A stretch of 27,097 bases of DNA from a virus. Below the pieces are notes generated by a model. The model was given only the letters and a program-made list of their open reading frames with translations, did not search any database and had not been told where the DNA came from. The DNA lies in IMG/VR virus record IMGVR_UViG_3300045912_000962, positions 1 to 27,097 of that record, one strand, 5' to 3'. The translations under genes and the position numbers were made by a program. Positions 9,824 through 25,932 of the stretch are shown here, in pieces; within the stretch, counting starts at the first letter, position 1, and each line of letters begins with the position of its first letter.

Positions 9824-10493
9824 CGGCCCTCACCGTTTGCCGCGTCGCGCGCGGCGATTTCCATGGTCTGCACGTCGGCCCAGAGCTCGGGGGTCATCTC
9901 GATCCCCGCCAGCGCCAGACCGGCCACCACACCGGCGTAGTCGAGCCCGGTGCGCACCGCCCCGCCGAGCCCGCCGGCGAGCCATCGCCATTGCGTGGAG
10001 ACCGCCAGGAAGGCCTCCACCGCGGCGAGGTTCTCGGGCCAGACGCCCTCGTCTTCGCCGGGCAGCAGTGCGTCTCCGAGGTCGATCCCGAAGCGGCGAG
10101 CGTCATCCTCGGCCTCGTCCCGGCGAGGGGCGCCCGACAGCCGGCCCTCGATCCAGGCGCGGGCCGCCCATCTCAGTTTCCCAGGCGGGCCTTGCCGACG
10201 CCCGCGAAGTACGCGGCGACGAGCCCGAGCTGCACGTAGCGCAGGGCGAGCAGCCGGTCGCGGAGCTCCCCGTCCCAGGGCAGCGGGTTGCCGTTCTCGT
10301 CCTCGATGTCCGCGCAGGAGACGAGGACGCGGTCGAAGAACGCCTCGATGTCCGCGCGGACCAGCTCCTCGGCCTCGGCGTACCGGATCACGCGGAACGT
10401 CGCGCTGAAGGTCTGTTCCTGGTGGCCGCCGTCGACCGGCACCTGGACGGCGACCGGATGGGTGAAGCGGGGATCGTTGACGATGCGCAGCAT
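9820..10493 (-). CDS. Tail assembly chaperone GT (made by -1 frameshift)
   Basis: The fused product would be 224 aa: 106 residues of G, then 118 in the -1 frame starting LRWAARAWIEGRLSG and ending 'AARDAANGEGR'. The extension reads like real protein ('GIDLGDALLPGEDEGVWPENLAAVEAFLAV' in two parts, 'LAGIEMTPELWADVQTMEI'). It has no ATG at its own 5' end; its first internal start (GTG 10020) comes far inside. This is the lambda GT arrangement. The T part recruits the tube subunit while G binds the tape measure. It overlaps the tape measure start as ATGA. Confidence 0.82.
10173..10493 (-). CDS. Tail assembly chaperone G (unshifted product)
   Basis: The 106-aa protein sits between the tail tube and tape measure genes, the place of lambda G. 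It has 'LRIVNDPRFTHPVAVQVPVDGG', a beta strand pair and 'EELVRADIEAFFDRVLVS'. It ends in 'ARLGN' then TGA, with the slippery GGGAAAC as the last codons before the stop. The unshifted protein would bind the tape measure protein during assembly. GGAG lies about 7 nt before ATG 10493. Confidence 0.8.
   Translation of the reverse strand: MLRIVNDPRFTHPVAVQVPVDGGHQEQTFSATFRVIRYAEAEELVRADIEAFFDRVLVSCADIEDENGNPLPWDGELRDRLLALRYVQLGLVAAYFAGVGKARLGN
10176..10182 (-). other. Programmed -1 frameshift site GGGAAAC
   Basis: The codons CTG GGA AAC TGA contain G-GGA-AAC, an ideal X-XXY-YYZ heptamer with the stop codon right after it. A slip of -1 gives GGG AAA CTG AGA TGG and continues in an open coding frame to 9820. 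Lambda uses GGGAAAG for the same purpose in G/GT. No stem-loop was checked. Confidence 0.85.
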
Positions 10494-10506
10494 GGCGGTC
10501 TCCCGG

Positions 10507-11439
10507 TCAGGTCAGCGTCAGGGTGAAGTCGTCGTTCCCGCTCACGGCCGCGACGTTGAACTTCAGCGGCCACTCGGCGATGTTCTGGCTGTTCTCGAGT
10601 CCGGCCGGGCGCTGGAGCTGTGCGGCCGGCATGGCGAAGGTCGCGATGTTGCCGGCGCCCGTGCCGTGGACGAGCTGGATCGCCACGTCCGTCGAGTCGC
10701 GGGCCAGCGTGTAGGGGTTGAGCGTGGTCACCGGCACCGCCTCGACCGTCGCCTCGGCCGTCGCCTCGCGGCCGGTGATCAGGATCGCCTCCGCGCCGAT
10801 CAGGAACCGCGGCTCGACCGCGTTGCCCATGTCGAGCGCGAACTCCCGCAGCACCAGGGGCTGGGCACCCACCGTGAAGGTCGGCGTGTTGGCGGTCGAG
10901 CCGACGCGCGGCTTGCGGAACGCGCCGAGCACCGGCGTCACGCGGGCGGCCTCGGCCGCGGGCTGGAACAGGCCCCAGAACTCGAACTCGATGTAGGGGA
11001 TGCCCTGCGCAGGCACCCGGAAGGTCGCGGTGCCGCGCGCCCCCGGGATCCGGTAGCGCGTGCCGCCGACCCAGAGCAGGAAGTGCCCGCTCTCGATCCC
11101 GTCGGTCACCGGGTTGTAGACCACCGAGGTGCCGGCGTTGATCGTCTGGGCCAGTCCGCAGGCCCTGAGCAGCGGCCCCCAGGCCGGCGGCGTGCCGGGG
11201 GTGCCCGAGGGCGCAAGCTCGACCTTGAAGCTCAGGCGCGCGTGCAGCGCTGCCGCGATGGTGCCCTGGTTGCCGAACCAGGGCAGGTCGAGGTTGCGCC
11301 CGACATCCTCGCCCTCCATCGGCGTCAGCTCGACGTCGACGACGAGCAGCGCGTCCGTTGCAGCCGAGGGCACAGGGTCGACGCCGTAGGCGGTCTCGAG
11401 CTTGAAGAGGACGATCTTGTTCTTCCAGAAGACGGGCAT
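10507..11439 (-). CDS. Major tail tube protein, non-contractile type
   Basis: The 310-aa protein begins MPVFWKNKIVLFKLETAYGVDPVPSAA in form, which is typical of phage tail tube proteins of siphovirus and RcapMu-like phages. 'PMEGEDVGRNLDLPWFGNQG' and a beta-rich body with repeated 'ATFRVPAQG / ATVEAVPVTTLNPYTLARDS' strands follow. It should polymerise into the tail tube. There is no sheath gene beside it, so the tail is non-contractile. AAGGAGG 6 nt before ATG 11439 is a strong ribosome site. Confidence 0.8.
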   Translation of the reverse strand: MPVFWKNKIVLFKLETAYGVDPVPSAATDALLVVDVELTPMEGEDVGRNLDLPWFGNQGTIAAALHARLSFKVELAPSGTPGTPPAWGPLLRACGLAQTINAGTSVVYNPVTDGIESGHFLLWVGGTRYRIPGARGTATFRVPAQGIPYIEFEFWGLFQPAAEAARVTPVLGAFRKPRVGSTANTPTFTVGAQPLVLREFALDMGNAVEPRFLIGAEAILITGREATAEATVEAVPVTTLNPYTLARDSTDVAIQLVHGTGAGNIATFAMPAAQLQRPAGLENSQNIAEWPLKFNVAAVSGNDDFTLTLT

Positions 11440-11440
11440 C

Positions 11441-11608
11441 TCAGGCCTCCTTCACGGGCGCTTCAACGCCGCCTTGACGGCCGGGTCCCCGGCCCCGGCG
11501 GGTTGTTTTCTCGGGCTCGGACGCGCCCTCCCTGCGCAGGCTGCCGTCGGGGTCGCGCACCCAGGCGCCTCCGGTCTGGGGAAGCGGATCGCTCGGGGTT
11601 TCGCTCAT
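11441..11608 (-). CDS. Small 55-aa protein before the tail tube gene
   Basis: This short ORF starts at ATG 11608, overlapping the gp37 stop (ATGA), and ends one base before the tail tube ATG. The product contains 'QTGGAWVRDPDGSLRREG' and a basic tail (EKTTRRGRGPGR). The 'VRDPDG.L..EG' segment is loosely like the Mu gp38/DUF2635 proteins that occupy the same place. The exact fit between neighbours argues that it is real. Its end carries the AAGGAGG that serves as the next gene's ribosome site. Confidence 0.65.
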   Translation of the reverse strand: MSETPSDPLPQTGGAWVRDPDGSLRREGASEPEKTTRRGRGPGRQGGVEAPVKEA

Positions 11609-12039
11609 GGCGTGATCCTCAGCTGGTCCTGGATCGAGAAGTCGATCTGGTCGAGAAGCGTGCCGCCCTGCAGCGGCGGCTGCAGCCGCGCCGCGCGGAA
11701 CACGAAGTCCCCCGCGATGTCCTCTGGCGCCGAACCGGCGAGGGCGGCGATGATGCGCATCCGCATGTCGCGGATTTCCGGCGCGGCGCGCTCTCCGGCC
11801 GCGCCAGCGTGGCGGTAGACGACGAGCACGCTCACCACCTCGTCGACGATCTGCGTGAACAGTCCCGCGGCCGACTCGCCGCCGCGCGCCGAGAGCCCCG
11901 CGGGGAGGACATGCGCCGACACGCCCTGCGGTGCCGTCGCCGCCCCGGAGAGGATCGCCTGCAGATCGGCAGCCGCATAGAGCCGCCCCCTCAGCTCCGG
12001 AACGCGCTCGGCCAGCCTCTCCATGACGAAGCCGAGCAT
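11605..12039 (-). CDS. Mu gp37-like tail terminator/joining protein
   Basis: The 144-aa protein resembles the gp37 family that follows gp36 in Mu-like phages: 'MLGFVMERLAERVPELRGRLY ... AADLQAIL', a central 'VDEVVSVLVVYRHAG' strand, 'ERAAPEIRDMRMRIIAAL' and a beta-rich end. The shape and place are those of a tail terminator or head-tail joining protein that caps the tail tube. Start and stop both overlap their neighbours (TGATG and ATGA). Confidence 0.75.
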   Translation of the reverse strand: MLGFVMERLAERVPELRGRLYAAADLQAILSGAATAPQGVSAHVLPAGLSARGGESAAGLFTQIVDEVVSVLVVYRHAGAAGERAAPEIRDMRMRIIAALAGSAPEDIAGDFVFRAARLQPPLQGGTLLDQIDFSIQDQLRITP

Positions 12040-12470
12040 CAGACGAAGCCCCTCAGATTGTCCTCGGTGAAGGGCCTGGCCCGGTCGGTCAGGCGTGCCC
12101 CGGTGCCTCCGGTGCCGGCGGCCTCCGGAACACCGGCCGCGGCGAGAAGCATCGTGCCCTGGGCGAGCTGCTGGAGCTGCCGGAGCGCCTCGCGGTAGTC
12201 GGCCTCGACCTTCGGATCGGGTGCATGTGTATGGAGCTTCCAGAACGCGATCGCGAGGGCGATGTCGCGGACGAGCGGCTGGGCCGGCGCGAGCGGCAGG
12301 GCGTAGCGCTTCGAGAGATAGGCGTCGATCGTCGCGTCGGTGTCGGCGATCGCGCGGTCCACGACGGCGAGGTCGATCTGTTCCTGGGCGAAGGGCCCGC
12401 GGTCGGTCAGCGCGACGAGCGCACGTTCGCCGAACCGGTCCGTCAGATCCTGGAGCGTGCAGTACGGCAT
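12039..12470 (-). CDS. Mu gp36-like head-tail connector protein (DUF1320)
   Basis: The 143-aa protein is DUF1320 (Mu gp36). It starts MPYCTLQDLTDRFGERALVAL and has 'VVDRAIADTDATIDAYLSKRYALPL' (about 36-60), the characteristic segment, then 'VRDIALAIAFWKLH' and 'DYREALRQLQQLAQG'. The family is placed at the head-tail junction as an adaptor. ATG 12470 shares one base with the previous stop, as does its own stop with the next start. Confidence 0.9.
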   Translation of the reverse strand: MPYCTLQDLTDRFGERALVALTDRGPFAQEQIDLAVVDRAIADTDATIDAYLSKRYALPLAPAQPLVRDIALAIAFWKLHTHAPDPKVEADYREALRQLQQLAQGTMLLAAAGVPEAAGTGGTGARLTDRARPFTEDNLRGFV

Positions 12471-12652
12471 CAGGACTCGATCCCCTTGACCGCCCACATG
12501 ACGGCCTCCTCGATCTTCGTTCGCGCGCGCCAGATCTCCCGGCCCTGGGGCATATCCTCGAGCAGATCGAGGAAGGCCTGCCCGGCGGCCCGCACGGCCG
12601 CCACCGTCTCCCGGTCGGCGGCGGGGCGGGTCAGGGTCGCGGGGTGGGTCAT
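12470..12652 (-). CDS. acb2: Acb2/Tad1-like cyclic-nucleotide sponge (anti-CBASS/anti-Thoeris)
   Basis: The 60-aa ORF has the compact helical hairpin of the Acb2/Tad1 family. A helix ('VAAVRAAGQAFLDLLEDMP'), a turn (QG) and the family's signature second helix 'REIWRARTKIEEAVMWAVKGI' are present, the TK(I/L)EEAxMWA core being the hallmark. Characterised members form multimers that bind and hide cyclic di- and trinucleotides or gcADPR, the alarm signals of CBASS and Thoeris. ATG 12652 has its own GAGAGGA site about 8 nt upstream, supporting separate translation. Its stop overlaps the gp36 start (TGATG). The ligand cannot be told from the sequence. Confidence 0.78.
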   Translation of the reverse strand: MTHPATLTRPAADRETVAAVRAAGQAFLDLLEDMPQGREIWRARTKIEEAVMWAVKGIES

Positions 12653-13030
12653 CGCTGCAGTCCTCTCGCTGGTGCCGGCGGGGCCGGGACGGCTACAGGG
12701 GATGCACGGCCGCCCCGCCGGCTGCTCGGCGCCCGGTCTGCCATCCGGGCGCCGCTGTCGTCGGGCTCCGCCGACGATCTCGATCGTCAGGGCGGGATCG
12801 GCCTCGAGGCGCGCACGCTCCTCCTCGCTCAGGTCGGCGAGCGCGATCTCGACCGCCTCGGGCCCGAAATGGCGGCCGATCCGCCAGCGGCCGCGCGCCG
12901 GCCCGGTCACGCGGACGAAGGCCGCGGCTGCAGCCGGAGAGGGCTTGCCCGTGGCGCCCTCTCCGGCGCCCCCCTGTCCCTCGCGGGGTTCTGGCGCAGC
13001 GGGGCGCGTTCTGCTCCTGCGGGCGCTCAT
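12470..13030 (-). CDS. Mu gp35-like protein, ORF reads on into Acb2-like domain
   Basis: The frame gives 186 aa. Residues 1-36 are a basic, Pro/Ala-rich leader. Residues 37-86 ('FVRVTGPARGRWRIGRHFGPEAVEI ... LSEEERARLEADPALTIEI') match the small Mu gp35-type family that follows the capsid gene. Residues 87-126 are an Arg/Pro-rich stretch with uneven codon choice. Residues 127-186 are the Acb2/Tad1-like domain listed separately. No stop separates the two parts. The true product may be gp35 alone (through a frameshift or a base error), a fusion, or both. ATG 13030 is preferred to GTG 13039. Confidence 0.6.
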   Translation of the reverse strand: MSARRSRTRPAAPEPREGQGGAGEGATGKPSPAAAAAFVRVTGPARGRWRIGRHFGPEAVEIALADLSEEERARLEADPALTIEIVGGARRQRRPDGRPGAEQPAGRPCIPCSRPGPAGTSERTAAMTHPATLTRPAADRETVAAVRAAGQAFLDLLEDMPQGREIWRARTKIEEAVMWAVKGIES

Positions 13031-13046
13031 CTTCCGCACCCCAGCA

Positions 13047-13940
13047 TCAGCTCAGCCACGGAACGACGAGCAGCTCGGCGGTGCCGGCCCACTGGTTGCT
13101 CTCGCCGCCGTTCACGAGCTGCGACTGCAGGATCTGCCGGCCGGCTCCCTCGAGCGAGGGGGGAACGACGAGCAGGTTCGGGATCAGACCCAGAGGCCGC
13201 CCGCCGTCGCCCTTCATGTTCATGATCGCGGCGCGGCCCACGGCGTAGTTGGCGGCATTGAGCGTCTGCCGGGAGCCCCAGGCCATCTGCGGGAAGCCGT
13301 AGCCCACGTTGCAGCGCATGTCGACGCCGTAGACGAACTCGCGCCGCTCGAAGACGTTGTCGTCGGTGGGCCGGTCCTTGTTCACGAACTCCGGCGCCTT
13401 GCGCTCCTGGTAGATGATCGGCTTCACCGTGCGGTTGGTGCAGAGCAGGAACCAGGGCGTGCCCGAGCCGCCGTCGGTGTTGGCGAAGACGGTCTCGTTG
13501 CCGGCGGCGTCGGTGATGGGATGGTCGGTGTCGAAGAAGAACTGCCCGTCCCAGCACTCGGTCGTGAAGCCCGCCGCGAGCAGGCCCCAGACGAGGATCT
13601 CGGGATGCGCGGCGGTGACCTCGCCCATCTCCGCGAACATCGCCGCGTACTGGCCGAGGTTGTCGTCCTCGATGTCGTTGCGGTCGACCGCGATCGTCTT
13701 CTCGAAGTGCTTGTTCGCGATCGTGTAGCTCGCCTCCGAGATGTTGTCGACGAGGCGCGGCCCGATCCACTCCCGCATCCCGGTCAGCTTCTTCAGCCAG
13801 CCGTAGCGGTTCTCGAACGTGGTCGAGCGGACGGTCATCGCCACCCGGTCCTTGAGCGGCGGGGCCATGCCGAGCCCGCGCTGGAACTCGGTCTTGAAGC
13901 CGACGCGGAGCGCGTCGAGGTTGGCCTGCGAGATGATCAT
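13047..13940 (-). CDS. T: Major capsid protein, Mu gpT-like (gp34)
   Basis: The 297-aa protein matches Mu T major head subunits throughout. Landmarks are 'NLDALRVGFKTEFQRGLGM', 'KLTGMREWIGPRLVDNIS' (about 51-68), 'FEKTIAVDRNDIEDDNLGQY' (about 79-98), 'FFFDTDHPI' and the C-terminal 'LIPNLLVVPPSLEGAGRQIL'. It has the HK97-type capsid fold in the family and assembles the icosahedral shell. A perfect AAGGAG lies 8 nt before the ATG, the best ribosome site in the window, fitting high expression. Confidence 0.93.
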   Translation of the reverse strand: MIISQANLDALRVGFKTEFQRGLGMAPPLKDRVAMTVRSTTFENRYGWLKKLTGMREWIGPRLVDNISEASYTIANKHFEKTIAVDRNDIEDDNLGQYAAMFAEMGEVTAAHPEILVWGLLAAGFTTECWDGQFFFDTDHPITDAAGNETVFANTDGGSGTPWFLLCTNRTVKPIIYQERKAPEFVNKDRPTDDNVFERREFVYGVDMRCNVGYGFPQMAWGSRQTLNAANYAVGRAAIMNMKGDGGRPLGLIPNLLVVPPSLEGAGRQILQSQLVNGGESNQWAGTAELLVVPWLS

Positions 13941-24578: not shown

Positions 24579-24977
24579 TCAGAACAGGGATTTCTGCCGG
24601 GGGTCCTCGGAGCGGCTTCGGCCGCTCCCGCCCTTCTCGCCCGACCCGGAGAGGTACTTGCGCACCTGGACGTCGCTGACGTGCAGTCTGCGCGCGATTT
24701 CGGCCACCGGCAAGCCCCGCGCGCGGAGAACGCGGGCGATGAACGGCTTCCCGGTGGGAACCCGCGCGGGCAGCAGCTCCGCGGCGGCGGCGAGCTCGGC
24801 TGCCTTGCGCTTGCCGAACCGGCGGGCCAGCCGCGACCGGCCGGAGGGGCTGCGGGAAAGGTAGAGTTCCGCTCCGCCGAACTCGAGCAGGAACTCGACC
24901 GCGCCGTCGTGGCCGAGCACGCGGACGTAGGGCTCCAGGTGCGCCGGGGGTTTCGGAAGGTCGCAACCGCCCGTCAT
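24579..24977 (-). CDS. Mor/C-family transcription activator
   Basis: The 132-aa protein has the layout of the Mor/C family of Mu-like phages. A helical dimerisation region has the typical 'EFGGAELYL' segment (residues 32-40), and a C-terminal helix-turn-helix reads GLPVAEIARRLHVSDVQVRKYL (88-109, with RARG just before). In Mu, Mor turns on the middle promoter and C the late promoters; only one such gene is seen here, so it may do both jobs. The gene sits directly before the lysis module, as C does in Mu. The dyad at 24551-24568 just after its stop is a candidate binding site. Mor versus C is not resolved. Confidence 0.75.
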   Translation of the reverse strand: MTGGCDLPKPPAHLEPYVRVLGHDGAVEFLLEFGGAELYLSRSPSGRSRLARRFGKRKAAELAAAAELLPARVPTGKPFIARVLRARGLPVAEIARRLHVSDVQVRKYLSGSGEKGGSGRSRSEDPRQKSLF

Positions 24978-25540
24978 GGCCGCTGCCCGAAGAGGCCGGT
25001 CTGGTCGCCCCACACGTCCGCGCCGGGCCAGGGCTCGCGCGCGAAGAGCTCGGCCACGGGAACGCCGGGTCGAAGCGCCATCACGAGGTCGCGCATCTCC
25101 GCGGGCTTGCGCGAATGCTCGCGGCGCGGGGCGTCGATCAGGTTGCGCTGCCTGCGCGAGCCGACCGCGGGGCGGCCGCGCGTCGCGAGAAGGAACGGCT
25201 CGCTCGCGGACCGCAGGATGAAGCCCGTCCCCATCGCGGCGGTGCCGGCCGACGTCCGCTTCGCCCAGGCGCCACCCGTCTTGTACTCGAAGCCCCATGC
25301 CGCGATGACGCGGAGAGCGACCTCAAGCGACGGCCATGTCGCCCACAGGACGAGGAGGCAGTCGCGGGCAGCCAGCTCTCCCACCGGCAGCGCGGCGATC
25401 TCCTCGGCGCTCATCGTCCGGTAGTGCGCCTCCGGCGCGCGGCCGTAACCCCTCTCCGACCAGAGCGCGGTGGCCCAGGGCGGATCCGCCAGAATCGCGC
25501 CGTAGTGGCCGGGACGGAGATGTCCGAACGGCCAGGTCAT
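24974..25540 (-). CDS. MT-A70 family DNA N6-adenine methyltransferase
   Basis: The 188-aa protein belongs to the MT-A70-type adenine methyltransferases. The catalytic DPPW motif is at residues 19-22, and there is a conserved 'HSRKP' at about 142-146 and a C-terminal 'LFAREPWPGADVWGDQ' that is typical of the family. It would transfer a methyl group from S-adenosylmethionine to N6 of adenine in DNA, most likely protecting phage DNA from host restriction. Mu uses the unrelated Mom modification for that purpose, so this may be a functional substitute. It is coupled by ATGA overlaps on both sides and belongs to the middle operon. Confidence 0.88.
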   Translation of the reverse strand: MTWPFGHLRPGHYGAILADPPWATALWSERGYGRAPEAHYRTMSAEEIAALPVGELAARDCLLVLWATWPSLEVALRVIAAWGFEYKTGGAWAKRTSAGTAAMGTGFILRSASEPFLLATRGRPAVGSRRQRNLIDAPRREHSRKPAEMRDLVMALRPGVPVAELFAREPWPGADVWGDQTGLFGQRP

Positions 25541-25932
25541 TCGGCGCGCCGCGTCCTGTGCGGCCCGCCGCTGCGGCCGCCGTGGATCTGGCAGAGGCCC
25601 GTCTCGTTGCGGTCGCTGACCGCGTTGCCGCAGCCCGGCACCGCGCAGGTGTCGGGTTCGGCCTCCGTCCCGCCGCCCGTCCTCAGGCCGCACCGGCGCT
25701 TGTTCGCCCATTCGGCGGCGGGCTCCACGGTCACGACGATCGGCGCGCCGTCGGCGCGGAAGTCGAGCACGTAGCGGTGGCCGGCGATGGTCACCGCCCT
25801 CGCGCCGGCTTCGGCGGCGCGGTCCACCGTCCGCGCGATCTCGAGTCGCAGCGCCGCGACGTCGAGGCCCATGACGCGCTCGAGATACCGCAGCAGCGCA
25901 TGTTCCGTGACATGGACTCGCGGACGCTTCAT
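25537..25932 (-). CDS. Unknown protein with C-terminal zinc-binding-like motif
   Basis: This is a 131-aa protein of unknown function. The N-terminal part is basic (MKRPRVHVTEHALLRYLERV) and is followed by a helix and a beta-rich stretch around residues 47-70. The C-terminal part carries cysteines at 96, 101 and 114 and a histidine at 117 (C-x4-C-x12-C-x2-H), a likely zinc knuckle resembling those beside HNH modules in phage proteins; no HNH catalytic core is seen. The start (ATG 25932) overlaps the gemA stop as ATGA and the end overlaps the methyltransferase start likewise. A nucleic-acid-binding role is a reasonable guess only. Confidence 0.7.
   Translation of the reverse strand: MKRPRVHVTEHALLRYLERVMGLDVAALRLEIARTVDRAAEAGARAVTIAGHRYVLDFRADGAPIVVTVEPAAEWANKRRCGLRTGGGTEAEPDTCAVPGCGNAVSDRNETGLCQIHGGRSGGPHRTRRAE

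Follow-up and report, generated by a model that had tools for sequence, protein, structure and literature searches.

Does a short open reading frame (ORF) between the gp35-like and gp36-like genes of a Mu-like phage encode a nucleotide sponge of the Acb2/Tad1 family, and what would such a protein do in the middle of a head operon? The ORF is read from the minus strand of a 27,097-nt viral DNA sequence (the window, to which positions refer unless another contig is named). The window comes from a long-tailed Mu-like phage (siphophage), and its gene set comprises Mu portal, Mu F, Gp27, a C-like late activator, terminase, head protease, head protein and tape measure. Read along the minus strand, the operon carries the major head protein gene (13047–13940; phrog_371, E 5e-118), the gp35-like gene (12764–13039; phrog_27280, E 8e-16, its end set by DNA alignment with a second contig, L002), an intergenic stretch (12653–12763), the ORF of 60 codons (12470–12652) and the gene for a gp36-like head-tail adaptor (12039–12470; 143 aa from the ATG at 12470–12468; phrog_195, E 5e-42 with a start at 12497). 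The major head protein resembles that of Rhodobacterales phages, a likeness that only hints at an alphaproteobacterial host. Elsewhere in the window, a DNA methyltransferase gene (phrog_359; 24974–25711) adjoins the C-like late activator.

The ATG of the ORF is at 12652 and its TGA at 12472–12470, in exact agreement with the interval that a first-pass annotation, made from the sequence alone, had given for an ORF between the gp35-like and gp36 genes; the translation is MTHPATLTRPAADRETVAAVRAAGQAFLDLLEDMPQGREIWRARTKIEEAVMWAVKGIES. That annotation had also credited the ORF with its own ribosome site, and direct reading of the sequence bears this out, as a Shine-Dalgarno-like GAGAGGA (12667–12661, minus strand) precedes the ATG by 8 nt. 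At the other end, the TGA shares one base with the ATG of gp36 (TGATG). The first-pass annotation had named neither the strand nor this overlap, nor the altered pocket residues described below. GC content at the three codon positions is 0.72/0.52/0.95, which looks coding-like and lies near the major-head-gene values of 0.61/0.44/0.97; the preceding 111 nt, read in the same frame, look non-coding (0.76/0.84/0.78). These 111 nt are open in frame in the window and contain two GC-rich stem-loops (within 12674–12754), and GC-rich stem-loops also occur in the gp35–gp36 gap of a related contig, L089 (5399–5434). Shuffled sequences folded as well as the window's stem-loops (z -1.1) and no promoter or terminator match was found ahead of the 60-aa gene, so we set the stem-loops aside as a functional element.

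The 60-aa protein matched the Acb2/Tad1 hairpin profile PF24729 with 55.3 bits (E 7.6e-15) over profile positions 7–56 of 58. Since the curated cut-off for this profile is 27 bits, the match is not due to chance, and the family assignment proposed at first pass stands. The protein also matched phrog_1454. An alignment query of viral contigs found more than 300 relatives, of which 80 were kept; 49 distinct relatives, each matching PF24729 at E 0.001 or better, were aligned with the window protein. The hairpin core is invariant in the 50 aligned sequences, and a profile of the relatives reached Acb2 homologue 43, PaP2/PaMx33 Acb2 (p26), T4 Vs.4 and Tad1 in the PDB. When the single sequence was scanned against viral and cellular genome collections, contig L002 was the sole match and none came from a cellular genome; neither a plasmid match nor an NCBIfam model was found for the 60-aa protein. 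By sequence, the protein is a member of the known Acb2/Tad1 family.

The hairpin fold proposed for the ORF product was recovered by AlphaFold2, which gave a confident model (mean pLDDT 89.5) of two long antiparallel helices spanning residues 11–31 and 38–59, with block pLDDT values of 91–99. The model aligned with T4 Vs.4 (7UQ2; Z 6.4) and with Acb2 in complex with cGAMP (8H2J; Z 6.3), each over 58 residues at an rmsd of 3.3–3.4 and at Z scores that unrelated hairpins equal, and with Acb2 homologue 43 bound to 3'cADPR over 57 residues at Z 5.7, within the range of unrelated hairpins. The fold alone therefore proves little, and the weight of the assignment rests on the sequence match. Foldseek returned no match below E 0.001 for the window model, as expected for a two-helix protein. 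The full-length relative encoded by L016 superposed more closely on Acb2, at 1.6–2.0 Å over 57–58 residues.

PaMx33/PaP2 Acb2 (p26; 8H2J, 8H2X, 8H39) shares the helical hairpin and PF24729 with the window protein and can be aligned with it from Tyr11 to the C-terminus, but its inter-helix segment is about 24 residues longer and its gene lies beside replication genes rather than in a head operon. T4 Acb2 (Vs.4; 7UQ2) has a hairpin with a C-terminal AKTKxxEAxMWA motif common to the window protein. The best single PDB match is Acb2 homologue 43 (9PTQ, with 3'cADPR), a weak similarity (E 0.025) to a protein that is short, like the window protein in N-terminal length, and whose hairpin lacks a long insert; 9PTQ shows that short family members can bind other ligands. 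Proteins of about 75 aa (from L012, L016, L033, L043 and L047) occupy the same place in the operon, are 47–56% identical to the window protein and have the core QGRE..ARTKIEEAVMWAVKG in common with it; unlike it, they carry an N-terminal ARVxNSPxRHxYRxL (mostly with the Tyr) and the Lys and Thr pocket positions. Tad1 (7UAV, 8KBF) shares a second-helix stretch, RE..A.T..EEA.MW, but has an extra N-terminal four-stranded β-sheet before its two helices (PMC12043709); the model of the 60-aa protein contains no strands and this sheet is absent.

The window protein begins later than its relatives, which are mostly 73–80 aa long and carry an N-terminal segment, RTxNNxxRHxYRVLSDxEK, that it lacks; equivalent N-terminal positions were assigned by gapless alignment backward from the conserved glycine. 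Thr6 occupies the place of a tyrosine found in 42 of 49 relatives (Tyr11 of PaMx33 Acb2, Tyr8 of T4 Acb2), and the window protein contains no tyrosine. Lys26 of PaMx33 Acb2, a cyclic-dinucleotide pocket residue, is lysine in all 49 relatives and is retained in Acb2 homologue 43; the window protein has Arg21 here, a conservative change. Glu59 stands where T4 Acb2 has Phe82 and where a threonine is present in all but one of the 49 relatives. The position of Arg67 of PaMx33 Acb2, a cyclic-trinucleotide site residue, is occupied by Arg38, as it is by arginine in every relative (49/49). In T4 Acb2, Tyr8 and Phe82 have been linked to cyclic-dinucleotide binding (PMC12657218). What is new, as read from the alignment, is that the window copy departs from the 49 relatives at all three positions equivalent to the known cyclic-dinucleotide pocket while retaining Arg38, so that residues of this pocket are altered but the arginine belonging to the other site is not. 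With its altered pocket, the protein could serve as a compact natural variant for probing the residues that set ligand range in the Acb2/Tad1 family.

Family members characterised so far are sponges (PMC12043709, PMC12657218), and Acb2 hexamers hold dinucleotides in inter-protomer pockets and trinucleotides in a central channel (PMC12043709). We think it probable that the 60-aa protein is a minimal and divergent oligomeric nucleotide sponge of the Acb2/Tad1 family, with an altered ligand range and made late with the capsid. It would have its own translation start within the late head operon, with coupling to gp36, and would accumulate alongside the capsid proteins; its helical hairpins would pack into dimers or hexamers, and the oligomer would bind a host immune nucleotide, leaving the host effector off. 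We infer nucleotide binding, ligand class, oligomeric state and a counter-defence role by analogy with the family, from which sequestering of CBASS or Thoeris signals is likewise a putative activity, and operon position points to late expression with the capsid. Because the pocket positions are changed and Arg38 is kept, the expected ligand would be a cyclic trinucleotide or a cADPR-type signal and not a canonical cyclic dinucleotide. A more specific proposal, which we advance only tentatively, is that this hairpin-only sponge has lost the dinucleotide pocket, binds a cyclic trinucleotide, a cADPR isomer or an as yet undescribed signal, and accumulates in step with the capsid protein, a trigger of some of these defences. 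Thoeris ThsB1 reportedly recognises the major head protein of the phage (PMC12043709), and it would therefore make sense for a sponge to be timed with the capsid: with head proteins as reported Thoeris triggers (PMC12043709), a sponge made with the capsid would align signal and antidote in time.

The main rival to a working sponge is loss of function, which would also fit three changed near-invariant positions and a very long branch (6.25 against a median of 0.15; the window protein could not be placed in the phylogenetic tree). The gene would on that account be a decaying or non-functional sponge remnant, kept only for its place in the operon and its translational coupling to gp36, and this would agree with alteration of all three residues that the relatives conserve (Tyr in 42, Lys in 49 and Thr in 48 of the 49), with the missing N-terminal motif and with a length that is the shortest among the intact ORFs aligned. 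We nevertheless consider a remnant unlikely, given that the ORF is intact, with a Shine-Dalgarno sequence and coding-like GC at its codon positions, that 19 of 23 core residues, including Arg38-Glu39 and EEAVMWAVK, are identical to those of the L016 and L012 proteins, and that a second phage contig, L002, has the identical sequence, L002 being the sole close relative and identical in DNA across the 60-aa gene.

A functional sponge also has to be weighed against a head or connector assembly protein acting in the virion. Eight Mu-like relatives that form a supported clade (100/99) carry the ~75-aa form at the same spot before gp36, so that placement in the head operon recurs among Mu-like phages and is not unique to the window, and in Sinorhizobium phage Aussie an unannotated Acb2/Tad1-hairpin protein, AUSSIE_37 (L003 5890–6126), is encoded between the head-to-tail adaptor and stopper genes. 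These placements would suit an assembly role, but in six relatives picked by head-protein similarity, with the same gene order, gp35 is directly followed by gp36 with no sponge gene between them; the head proteins of these six are 45–82% identical to that of the window (contigs L088, 82%, and L089, 70%; phages vB_ThpS-P1, 68%, RC1, 58%, vB_RhkS_P1, 46%, and Fc02, 45%), and the complete records of the four named phages contain no PF24729 match. Most family relatives are located in other modules, where they adjoin endolysins (lysis), terminases, integrases and nucleases as well as head genes, with no single module in common. Absence from this spot in the six relatives together with such varied neighbours indicates an accessory pattern rather than a virion component and, with characterised family members being sponges (PMC12043709, PMC12657218), an assembly function seems distinctly improbable. 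The pattern suggests that the 60-aa gene is a mobile accessory gene that prefers certain landing sites and does not belong to the virion, and accessory behaviour of this kind would fit counter-defence.

In the contig of the closest of the six, L088, an 84-aa Acb2 homologue from another, PaMx33-like subfamily is encoded instead shortly before the terminase gene (L097 1916–2170); it has a Tyr in its GYQP motif and the sequence KRWLAIGRT. In Mu-like phages, sponge-type counter-defence genes appear to settle between head genes, and a close relative can bear a different type of sponge elsewhere in its genome; genes lodged in these ways are easily overlooked in annotation. In the record of Sinorhizobium phage Aussie, AUSSIE_37 is labelled a hypothetical protein. 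An Acb2-like gene is also present in a tailed-phage genome whose record is named as an algal virus, Dunaliella viridis virus SI2 (L004 5917–6147), a host label that is doubtful.

The boundary between gp35 and the 60-aa ORF was resolved by comparison with L002 (36,058 bp), a near-identical phage contig in which the identical 60-aa ORF is separate from gp35. In the window, a 189-aa ORF (13039–12470) is open in frame from the gp35-like gene through the 60-aa gene because a single base at 12763, C on the minus strand where L002 has T, turns a stop codon into CGA; in the DNA alignment the corresponding codon of L002 (12763–12761) is TGA and ends gp35 there. The 60-aa ORF of L002 begins at the same ATG, with no alternative start in between. 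That the true product in this phage is a 189-aa gp35–sponge fusion displaying the hairpin domain on the capsid is hardly credible, for although no stop interrupts the frame between 13039 and 12470, L002 differs by one base and its gp35 stops at TGA, base usage in the 111-nt linker is not coding-like in that frame, the linker would encode a low-complexity Arg/Pro/Gly stretch, and a Shine-Dalgarno sequence is retained at the downstream ATG. Judged on these sequence features, the 60-aa ORF is a separate gene, and we interpret the gp35 fusion as a single-base accident, whether genuine or introduced during assembly. The first-pass annotation had warned that a gp35 annotated as one long gene would hide the ORF; this applies to the window contig, with its CGA, but not to L002, where the TGA stop keeps the two apart.

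From about 10,000 to 12,760, the window and L002 are almost without differences. At 12890–13250, a highly divergent patch with nearly identical flanks covers the N-terminal half of gp35 and the 3' end of the head-protein gene; from its sequence, this patch looks like a recombination tract.
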